DNA of 5,062 nt from Nitrospinae bacterium RIFCSPLOWO2_12_FULL_45_22. GTDB lineage: Bacteria > 2-12-FULL-45-22. This document shows positions 1,170 to 5,062 of the stretch, piece by piece (position 1 is the first letter of the stretch; each line of letters begins with the position of its first letter). Below the pieces are notes generated by a model. The model was not told the DNA's origin, did not search any database, and was given only the letters and a program-made list of their open reading frames with translations. The DNA lies in assembly GCA_001803565.1 (NCBI GenBank), contig MHDQ01000187.1, forward strand, positions 1 to 5,062. Reading direction: 5' to 3'. Both the position numbers and the translations under genes were made by a program.

Positions 1170-1185
1170 GTTACATAAACGTAAC
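1170..1185. promoter_or_regulatory. Proximal enhancer-type palindrome GTTAC-N6-GTAAC
   Basis: GTTACATAAACGTAAC is a perfect 5-6-5 inverted repeat. An overlapping 7-5-7 perfect repeat, TTACGTT-ACATA-AACGTAA, spans 1166-1184. Its centre lies about 112 bp upstream of the predicted sigma-54 start, within the usual range for NtrC-class upstream activating sequences. The same half-sites and spacing recur at 1269-1284. I infer a binding site for the dimeric Fis-type HTH of the neighbouring regulator. Confidence 0.7.
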
Positions 1186-1188
1186 ACA

Positions 1189-1218
1189 ATAACGGACAAG
1201 ATTATAGATAACCGTTAT
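1189..1218. repeat. Inverted repeat ATAACGG...CCGTTAT between the enhancer palindromes
   Basis: ATAACGG (1189-1195) and CCGTTAT (1212-1218) are perfect 7-bp inverted copies 16 nt apart. The right arm also belongs to a tight palindrome, ATAAC-C-GTTAT (1208-1218). No T-run follows on either strand, so it is not an intrinsic terminator. It could be an accessory protein site, a degenerate relative of the GTTAC sites, or chance. Confidence 0.3.
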
Positions 1219-1249
1219 GATTAGCCATGTTTGAGGAAATAAATGAAGT

Positions 1250-1258
1250 GGGGGGGGG
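1250..1258 (+). repeat. G9 homopolymer tract
   Basis: Nine consecutive G residues lie in the intergenic region between the two GTTAC-N6-GTAAC palindromes. Such tracts are prone to slipped-strand length change and to sequencing error. A length change here would alter the spacing and helical phase of the two palindromes but no protein frame. Confidence 0.7.
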
Positions 1259-1268
1259 AATCGGAAAT

Positions 1269-1284
1269 GTTACCAATAAGTAAC
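1269..1284. promoter_or_regulatory. Distal enhancer-type palindrome GTTAC-N6-GTAAC
   Basis: GTTACCAATAAGTAAC has the same half-sites and 6-bp spacer as the palindrome at 1170-1185. Here the symmetry extends to ATGTTAC-N6-GTAACAT (1267-1286), ending on the last base of the regulator's stop codon. Centre-to-centre distance to the proximal copy is 99 bp, and it lies about 211 bp upstream of the predicted sigma-54 start. I infer a second binding site for the same regulator. Confidence 0.65.
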
Positions 1285-2703: not shown

Positions 2704-2709
2704 TCCTTT
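2704..2709 (-). promoter_or_regulatory. RBS of the response regulator, overlapping the kinase stop codon
   Basis: AAAGGA on the minus strand overlaps the TAA stop of the kinase (TAAAGGA) and lies 8 nt before the ATG at 2695. A stronger AGGAGG (2718-2713) is inside the last kinase codons but 17 nt from the ATG, too far for normal use. The arrangement favours translational coupling of kinase and regulator. Confidence 0.75.
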
Positions 2710-5062
2710 ACGCCTCCTTCAACGGCAGCCTGATCGTGAATGTTGTCCCCTTCCCCTCTTCGCTCTTTACGTCTATCTTCCCTGAGTGTTTCTCAACTAT
2801 ACCAAGACTTACTGCAAGGCCGAGCCCGGTTCCCTTTCCAACATCCTTAGTTGTAAAAAACGGATCAAATATCCTTGGCATTATCTGTGGCGGTATCCCT
2901 GAGCCATTATCAGAAACAGCGATACAGCACCAGTTGTTGTCGGCATATGTCCTGACTATTACCTCCCCCTCACCCTTGACTGCCTGAACCGCATTCAGCA
3001 ACATATTCATAACTACCTGTCCTATCTTATGCTGATCCATCATTACTCTTTGCATGTTTAAACCAAGCTCTTTTCTTAGATGGATACCATTCTTCGTTAC
3101 TGCATAACTCATCAGAGACAGGACATCTTCAACAAGGTTATTTACATCCACAGCTAAAAGCCTCGGTTCATGCTGCTGTGCAAAATCAAGAAGCTGTTCA
3201 ACAGTTCTCTGAACACGCTGGATTCCATCCTCCATGGACTTCATATATATCACTTCACGCTCCTTTGGCAGGAGCTTATTACGTATATTATACAGACAAT
3301 TCATAATCCCGCCAATGGGGTTATTGATCTCATGTGCAATTCCTGCAGCCAACTGGCCTATAGCAGACATCTTCTCCGCCTGAGCAACCTGCTGTTCCAG
3401 TCTGTTCCTTTCAGTAATATCATTTGCAATTACCAGCACCCCCGCCATCTTTTCATCTCCGCTTCTAAGAGGTGAAATACTGAGAACCGCATATTTTACA
3501 CCCCCGGAATTATCTATAATTTCTACCTCATATGTCTGTCTTATCCCCTCTGCTACGGTCTTTCTTAACCTCTCGCCTTTATGCTTCTTCGACAGTATAG
3601 CCAGGAATGAACTTCCAACAAGATCTTCCTTCTTATAACCCCACTCTTCTACCTTTTTATTAACATAAGTAATCAGTCCGGCAGGGTTAAGTGTGAAAAT
3701 AACGTCGTTTGCGCCTTCAAGGAGGTTTTCAAGATAATCCTTGGTCTCCCTCAACTCCCTGGTCCTGTCTGATACCCTCTGTTCAAGGATGTCATGATAT
3801 TCACGCAGATGCCTTTCCAATCTCTTCCTGTCAGTAATATCGCGGACAAATGCCCTTGTCTTTATGAATTGACCGGTTATCGGATGGTAAAGGGCAGTGG
3901 CGGATATCTCAACTTCTATTTTTTTACCATCCTTTGTAATAAATTGTAACTCGACCCGGCCTTTGCCTTCTTTAATCACCCGACCTACATGCTTTTTTAC
4001 ACGCTCCCTGAGTTCTTCCGGAACTATATCCTCCAGCCTCTTATTTCGCATCTCCTCAATCGTGTAACCAAGGGTATTAAGTTCCGTCTTGTTAACCCCT
4101 ACAAAATATCTTTCAGCATTAACAGAATGAATCATCTCAGGAGAATTTTCGATGAGATCCTTATACCTCTCCTCAGATGTCTCAAGTTCCTTATTCCTCT
4201 CCTCAAGAGTAGTATAAGTCTTCTTTAACTCTTCTGCCATTTTATTGAACTCATCCGCCAGTTTTTCTATCTCATCACCTGTCTTAACATAAAGACGGTG
4301 GTCAAGTTTACCCTGGCCTATAAGTTCTACACCACGGTACAGCTCATTAATAGGTTTAACAATATCTCCTGCAGCATAGACGGCTGTAAGGGCAAGAAAC
4401 ACTATGAGCACAAAGGCAAATATAGTAACGCGCGCGAGTAAAGAATATATGGGTGCATACATCTCACTGGGGCTCTGTCTCAGAAAGACATACCATTTGT
4501 TTCCGTCAAGCCATCCAAGTTCCGGGTTTATTGTCGCAAGTACCGGGGCAAAACCAACAATAGAGTCTTTACCGCCATGGGCATCATCTTTTGCAACCCC
4601 CCATCCCGGATTAACGCGTGTTACGAGTTTGACAAGATCATGGCTTATATGATGGCTGCGCAGAGGAAATATAGGACACATGATAATTGTACCTGCAGAA
4701 TCTACAAGGTTTGCATGTCCTGTCTTACCGATTCTTACATTATTTATAATCTCGAGGAGGCTATCTACTGTATACCTGATTGCAACAACGCCGATTGCCT
4801 TACCATTATCCATGACGGGGGCCGCTATGTTCATCAGATACTTGCCGGTTTTATTATCAAGATTTAAATCACCGACGTAGACCTTGCCCGCACCATTGTT
4901 GAAGGCAACATTAAACCAGCGCTCACTTTTGAAATTACCGCTTCCACCCTCGTTTATGCCGGCAACATAATCAGCACTCCTGTCAACAATTAAAAGGCTG
5001 TGAACTTCCTTTTCATCATAACTCCTGAATTCCCTGAGATAATTATTCAGTTCACCTCTGCC
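2708..5062 (-). CDS. dCache-HAMP-PAS-PAS hybrid-sensing membrane histidine kinase, N-terminus cut by window edge
   Basis: Membrane sensor kinase, probable partner of the adjacent regulator. The frame stays open from the TAA at 2708 to the right edge: 784 residues, true start outside. The ATG at 4834 is internal: the 76 codons before it continue the sensor fold (ERWFNVAFNNGAGKVYVGDLN, then LDNKTGKYLM). Visible residues: dCache extracytoplasmic sensor 1 to about 200; transmembrane helix about 212-231; HAMP about 231-283; PAS about 296-411 (ends RDITDRKRLE); coiled-coil linker about 416-447; PAS about 441-556 (ends NDITERNRLE); HisKA with phospho-accepting His577 in IAHEINNP; HATPase_c with N-box NMLLNAVQA, G1 DNGSGIP, FDPFFTTK and G2 GKGTGLGLA. 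The HEINN sequence fits the HExxN phosphatase motif, so it may also dephosphorylate the regulator. There is no receiver domain. The ligand is unknown; co-location with a nitrate/nitrite transporter hints at a nitrogen-oxide or related signal. Confidence 0.93.
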   Translation of the reverse strand, partial: GRGELNNYLREFRSYDEKEVHSLLIVDRSADYVAGINEGGSGNFKSERWFNVAFNNGAGKVYVGDLNLDNKTGKYLMNIAAPVMDNGKAIGVVAIRYTVDSLLEIINNVRIGKTGHANLVDSAGTIIMCPIFPLRSHHISHDLVKLVTRVNPGWGVAKDDAHGGKDSIVGFAPVLATINPELGWLDGNKWYVFLRQSPSEMYAPIYSLLARVTIFAFVLIVFLALTAVYAAGDIVKPINELYRGVELIGQGKLDHRLYVKTGDEIEKLADEFNKMAEELKKTYTTLEERNKELETSEERYKDLIENSPEMIHSVNAERYFVGVNKTELNTLGYTIEEMRNKRLEDIVPEELRERVKKHVGRVIKEGKGRVELQFITKDGKKIEVEISATALYHPITGQFIKTRAFVRDITDRKRLERHLREYHDILEQRVSDRTRELRETKDYLENLLEGANDVIFTLNPAGLITYVNKKVEEWGYKKEDLVGSSFLAILSKKHKGERLRKTVAEGIRQTYEVEIIDNSGGVKYAVLSISPLRSGDEKMAGVLVIANDITERNRLEQQVAQAEKMSAIGQLAAGIAHEINNPIGGIMNCLYNIRNKLLPKEREVIYMKSMEDGIQRVQRTVEQLLDFAQQHEPRLLAVDVNNLVEDVLSLMSYAVTKNGIHLRKELGLNMQRVMMDQHKIGQVVMNMLLNAVQAVKGEGEVIVRTYADNNWCCIAVSDNGSGIPPQIMPRIFDPFFTTKDVGKGTGLGLAVSLGIVEKHSGKIDVKSEEGKGTTFTIRLPLKEA

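Follow-up and report, generated by a model that had tools for sequence, protein, structure and literature searches.

Paired GTTAC-N6-GTAAC dyads as candidate enhancer sites of an NtrC-type two-component system at a sigma-54 promoter of nitrate-respiration genes in uncultured Nitrospirota and Deltaproteobacteria

NtrBC, ZraSR and AtoSC share a design in which a sensor histidine kinase is paired with a response regulator that combines an AAA+ activator domain with a Fis-type helix-turn-helix (HTH), and in which paired dyad enhancers lie about 100-200 bp from a -24/-12 promoter. Sigma-54 promoters require an enhancer-bound AAA+ activator. Two-component control of nitrate transport and reductase genes (narK, narGHJI) is represented by NarX-NarL and NarQ-NarP, which operate alongside FNR; NarL and NarP are not sigma-54 activators, and NarX and NarQ are sensors of another type. 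Sigma-54 control of nitrogen-oxide genes (NO reductase, hcp) via tandem dyads is known from NorR, whose sites read GT-(N7)-AC (PMC1274295). In Desulfovibrio vulgaris, the response regulator DVU0621 targets the nitrite reductase genes DVU0624-0625 (PMC3333781) and is among the sigma-54-dependent response regulators with rebuilt motifs (PMC4641369). Uncultured Nitrospirota are reported to reduce nitrate in groundwater poor in oxygen (PMC11033732).

The locus analyzed here, a contig of 5,062 nucleotides (the window), carries three genes, all on the minus strand, in the order sensor histidine kinase (HK), response regulator (RR), intergenic gap and NarK-like transporter. The HK gene (2708-5062) encodes dCache, HAMP, two PAS, HisKA and HATPase domains and has its N-terminus cut by the contig end; a full-length version is present on locus L038 of Nitrospirae bacterium RBG_16_43_11. 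The RR gene (1286-2695) encodes a receiver, an AAA+ sigma-54 activator domain and a Fis-type HTH (profile matches to PF00072, PF00158, PF25601 and PF02954), i.e., the full NtrC-type architecture, and its product is the presumed dyad binder. Among the NCBIfam equivalog matches listed, it reached none of the cut-offs. With 443 bits against a TIGR01818 cut-off of 558.6 it does not qualify as NtrC proper (NR(I)), and with 339.7 bits against a cut-off of 476 for the NorR model it does not qualify as NorR. Nor is it of the NarL type (LuxR/NarL, without an AAA+ domain), as it carries PF00158 and HTH_8. The transporter gene (1-900), presumed to be the first gene of the target operon, has its C-terminus cut by the other contig end. 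It matched the NarK family model TIGR00886 with an E-value of 4e-56 and 190.6 bits, under the curated cut-off of 311.7, and a complete homologue from a relative (L141) also stayed below it with 225.4 bits. We therefore call the transporter NarK-like, an assignment that leans on the narG, narH and narJ neighbours described below.

The 385-bp gap between the RR and narK-like genes contains a near-consensus sigma-54 promoter, TGGCACTTGTCTTGCA (1091-1076, minus strand). Upstream of it are two palindromes of the form GTTAC-N6-GTAAC, a proximal one (GTTACATAAACGTAAC, 1170-1185) and a distal one (GTTACCAATAAGTAAC, 1269-1284), both of them candidate upstream activator sites. An exact motif search confirmed that both match at all 10 specified bases, just where they had been annotated. 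Measured from the -12 GC, the dyad centres are at 99.5 and 198.5 bp, which corresponds to about -112 and -211 relative to the predicted start and agrees with the distances given initially. The dyads had also been described as neighbouring the regulator gene, and they do adjoin it, but on its downstream side, between RR and the narK-like gene, and not upstream of RR. Elsewhere in the window, no further dyad with one mismatch or less was found, and the two matches with two mismatches are both inside coding sequence. The presumed narK leader contains an imperfect 32-bp inverted repeat (GTAATACTACTTATTA/TAATAACGACTATTAC, 973-1004) with arms that are 81% complementary. A run of nine G at 1250-1258, between the dyads, is absent in relatives and may be a tract whose length, and with it the dyad spacing, varies through phase variation or assembly.

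The initial annotation considered two such copies unlikely to arise by chance. Among 3000 dinucleotide shuffles of the gap, only one held at least one copy of the dyad and none held two. However, 96 of the 3000 shuffles (about 3%) contained a perfect 5-bp dyad of some kind (spacer 0-12) in repeated form. Taken by itself, the window is therefore no more than suggestive, and conservation has to decide. Homologues of the RR were identified by scanning bacterial genomes, and seven Nitrospirota MAGs (L039-L045; RR identity 75-82%) have the downstream region sequenced. All seven retain a dyad pair (GTTAC-N6-GTaaC-like), a TGGC-N7-TTGC promoter and a NarK-like gene, as does a second copy of the locus in nzgw271 (L141); in L038, also found in the RR scan, the gap is a run of N. 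The proximal dyad is centred 97.5-102.5 bp from the -12 element in ten promoters, including the L141 copy and a divergent promoter on L133, and the distal dyad 170-198 bp overall and 170-190 bp in the relatives. With the arrangement kept in 7/7 relatives at a fixed promoter distance, found again in a second bacterial class and without a match in the reversed-pattern controls (below), a chance or low-complexity effect of the AT-rich gap is refuted for all practical purposes.

The conserved unit is not the perfect 10-bp dyad that had been proposed. The pair itself is kept, but the unit is better written TGTTACrTTnnnGTwaCA, with a looser promoter-side half; in several relatives the right half-site reads GTATC, GTTAC or GTTTC. 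L040-L044 have an extra degenerate GTTAC half-site, located past the distal dyad at a distance of about 30 bp. The RR recognition-helix region is invariant among the orthologues that bear the dyads. It had further been suggested that the 99-bp spacing between the dyads, not being a whole number of helical turns, may matter for cooperative binding. The spacing is not conserved, however, ranging from 66 to 99 bp with 99 bp particular to the species of the window, and the phasing argument thus carries no weight; in a test of helical phasing, R stayed at about 0.6 for all periods between 9.8 and 11.5 bp and discriminated nothing. The near-fixed distance of the proximal dyad, by comparison, points to a constraint, either on the loop or on the face of the DNA.

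Because the distal dyad in the window directly follows, and abuts, the RR stop codon, it might instead act at the RNA level as a terminator or processing hairpin. We regard this as highly improbable. The stems, of 5-6 bp, are rich in A and T, the loop measures 6 nt, there is no U-run, and an Rfam search gave no match. Moreover, the relatives have 35-294 bp between the last matched base of RR and the distal dyad, and the dyads on L133 and L167 are not downstream of any RR gene.

The operon beyond the narK-like gene is cut off in the window by the contig end, and its nar genes are seen in relatives. The second copy in nzgw271, L141, has the order RR, dyads, promoter, narK-like, usp, a cytochrome gene (cytC), narG (1260 aa), narH and narJ, of which the last three score above their NCBIfam cut-offs (1381 bits against 1084, 679.7 against 524 and 60.2 against 59.35, respectively). 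L039, L040 and L042 continue with narK, usp, cytC and narG as far as these loci extend, and L044 with narK, cytC and narG. On L038, the RR gene is followed by a run of N (4220-4377) and then by the apparent end of usp, cytC and narG, which reads as a scaffold gap that hides narK and most of usp. A further dyad pair with a sigma-54 promoter (L133:3216-3405) is divergent from the HK gene and precedes usp and the gene for a second transporter of the NarK type (narK2). The genome of nzgw271, which holds L041 and L141, was described to encode narGHI with a co-localized narK and was linked to the reduction of nitrate in groundwater low in oxygen (PMC11033732). That study notes narK and narGHI but does not account for their regulation, and its text contains none of the words sigma, two-component and regulator.

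Outside the Nitrospirota, three deltaproteobacterial loci (L052, L054 and L055) have homologous RR and HK genes, in swapped order, before a region with dyads and a TGGC-N7-TTGC promoter, whose counterpart is present in every Nitrospirota relative as well. L054 and L055 continue with a NarK-like gene, and no gene was scored beyond this region in L052. The distal dyad is strong in all three and centred at 185.5-190.5 bp; the proximal one, centred at 119.5-121.5 bp, is conserved and weaker. Deltaproteobacterium H5_GWC, whose genome contains the RR homologue L060, has two good dyads and the promoter TGGTATGCATATTGC before homologues of the usp-narK2 genes of L133, with the proximal dyad centred about 120.5 bp from -12. 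Conservation in orthologous regions, proposed initially as a check of the motif, is thus apparent in 7/7 Nitrospirota relatives and four Deltaproteobacteria. As the search matrix was trained on the sites of L039-L045, enrichment there is circular, whereas only the deltaproteobacterial sites (L052, L054, L055 and, for H5_GWC, L167) are independent of the training. Around RR homologues of other clades (566 kb), there was one match compared with one to three control matches, and a scan of 20 genomes with more distant RR relatives was near background (one control match, in G086). In that scan, the match in G083 was set aside, as it is at a coding ORF and looks like chance; the match in G081 proved real once the region was inspected, where the promoter-like string that had matched faces the other way and the likely true promoter, TGGTATGCATATTGC, faces usp-narK2. 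Many deltaproteobacterial RRs with a nearly identical recognition helix and a different HK had no dyad-sigma-54 arrangement nearby or in their genomes, and the helix alone therefore does not predict the motif. Three deltaproteobacterial loci (L046:1607, L053:1632 and L057:200) carry a related dyad, TGTTACCTTTTTGTAATA, close to TTGAC(A) and upstream of the gene for a different HK; it is possibly an autorepression site.

Random scattering of the motif, which would have spoken against an operator, was not observed. The dyad-pair pattern matched nine distinct loci in eight genomes, namely eight RR-narK loci and the HK-divergent usp-narK2 promoter of RIFCSPLOW2_12_42_9, and the pattern of dyad plus promoter gave 10 matches in 11 genomes (25 Mb), nine at RR-narK and one at the same usp-narK2 promoter. 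The reversed-pattern controls gave no match in either set of genomes. By contrast, single dyads with one mismatch in the genome bin of the window (G000) were at or below background (48 sites versus 80 in the control), so it is the arrangement, not the bare dyad, that carries the information. Exact dyads number four in this bin, and the two outside the window are without recognizable sigma-54 promoter context. We rejected this own-genome count as a test and used the genomes of the true relatives instead, because the contig is probably mis-binned and the count is therefore weak evidence.

A probable mis-binning of the window contig (G000:C187) is suggested by its HK-RR DNA, which differs from that of RBG_16_43_11 (L038) at 29 of 3648 aligned bases (about 99% identity); across the rpoN region, by contrast, the host MAG and the RBG_16_43_11 genome share only about 65% identity. 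A narG gene above cut-off was not found in the host MAG. Recent transfer is an alternative that we do not favour over probable mis-binning. In the same bin, interspersed repeats of about 80-170 bp number in the dozens, most of them with 85-97% identity (e.g., G000:C246, L159:3185-3500). On another contig of the bin (G000:C129, L132:5192-5287), three near-dyads and a sigma-54 promoter, TGGCATGACCTTTGC, accompany an RR of 53-55% identity; the genes downstream encode a multihaem-cytochrome-like protein and a molybdopterin oxidoreductase resembling TtrA/PhsA. This locus, which belongs to another phylum, suggests that related activators may keep related operators.

The dyads are very likely enhancer sites of the cognate NtrC-type RR that drive a sigma-54-dependent nitrate-respiration operon. 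Conservation and specificity support the initial proposal of a candidate operator for the neighbouring regulator, and the RR is the likely binder because the dyads lie in enhancer range, beside a sigma-54 activator gene, and follow the RR across lineages. Briefly, the kinase, with its periplasmic dCache domain, would phosphorylate the RR in response to a signal that might be nitrate, nitrite or redox state. RR dimers would use the Fis-type HTH to bind the two dyads, situated about 110 and 180-210 bp before the start, AAA+ domains would assemble, and DNA looping would allow them to drive open-complex formation by sigma-54 RNA polymerase at the -24/-12 promoter. The outcome would be expression of narK and, judging from the relatives, the whole usp-cytC-narGHJ operon, and the same operator pair may drive a separate usp-narK2 unit in at least two lineages. 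Binding by the RR, activation rather than repression, phosphorylation and looping are what we infer from sequence. The sigma factor gene rpoN (PF04552) is present in 10 of 11 genomes, a set outside which the likely true species of the window (L038/G070) falls; its lack in G060 reflects either an incomplete draft or a real absence.

Many protein families bind dyads of this size, and the position of the TGTTACCTTTTTGTAATA dyad near TTGAC(A) in L046, L053 and L057 would suit a repressor. The dyads could thus be operators of a different factor, e.g., a one-component repressor or activator responding to nitrate, NO or redox state, that co-regulates the sigma-54 promoter. We consider this unlikely, as the promoter needs an activator about 100-200 bp upstream, where these are the only conserved dyads, and as they adjoin the sigma-54 activator gene in nearly every genome. 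Presumably, they also match neither FNR/DNR nor NarL-type sites, and they do not match the GT-N7-AC sites of NorR (PMC1274295).

With its activator domains, -24/-12 promoter, rpoN and conserved dyads, the system can be classed as an NtrC-type sigma-54 two-component regulon with putative binding by the RR. Its kind, an NtrC-type two-component system acting with sigma-54, was already known, and within it the operator and the small regulon are new and well supported; a search of the available literature for the motif in several written forms found no mention of it. NtrC systems serve nitrogen assimilation, whereas the target here is nitrate transport and respiration, and the NtrC box (TGCACC-N5-GGTGCA) is unlike the operator TGTTAC-N6-GTAACA. 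The TyrR box (TGTAAA-N6-TTTACA) has the same 6-6-6 dyad geometry and is bound by a Fis-type HTH, but half-site sequence, regulator type and targets differ. NorR is a one-component NO sensor, in contrast to the receiver-domain RR and the GTTAC-N6-GTAAC dyads found here. DVU0621, compared by target and class and not by motif, is likewise a response regulator of a nitrogen-oxide pathway and differs in its target, nitrite reductase. The operator, the promoter and the cognate two-component pair make up a testable nitrate-respiration switch in a lineage represented by MAGs only, and its interest, which we rate as moderate, lies in the target, nitrate respiration in an uncultured lineage. These elements suggest that a pathway usually ascribed to regulators of the NarL/FNR type is here under the control of sigma-54. 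NarXL and NarQP resemble the system in their presumed job and are set apart by the sigma-54 promoter and dCache sensor found here. On balance, it seems probable that in class 9FT-COMBO-42-15 of the Nitrospirota and in several Deltaproteobacteria, a dedicated two-component system acting with sigma-54 switches nitrate respiration (narK-usp-cytC-narGHJ and usp-narK2) through an operator of its own, used almost only here. Such a system would be a functional counterpart of NarXL, assembled from other components and common to more than one phylum.
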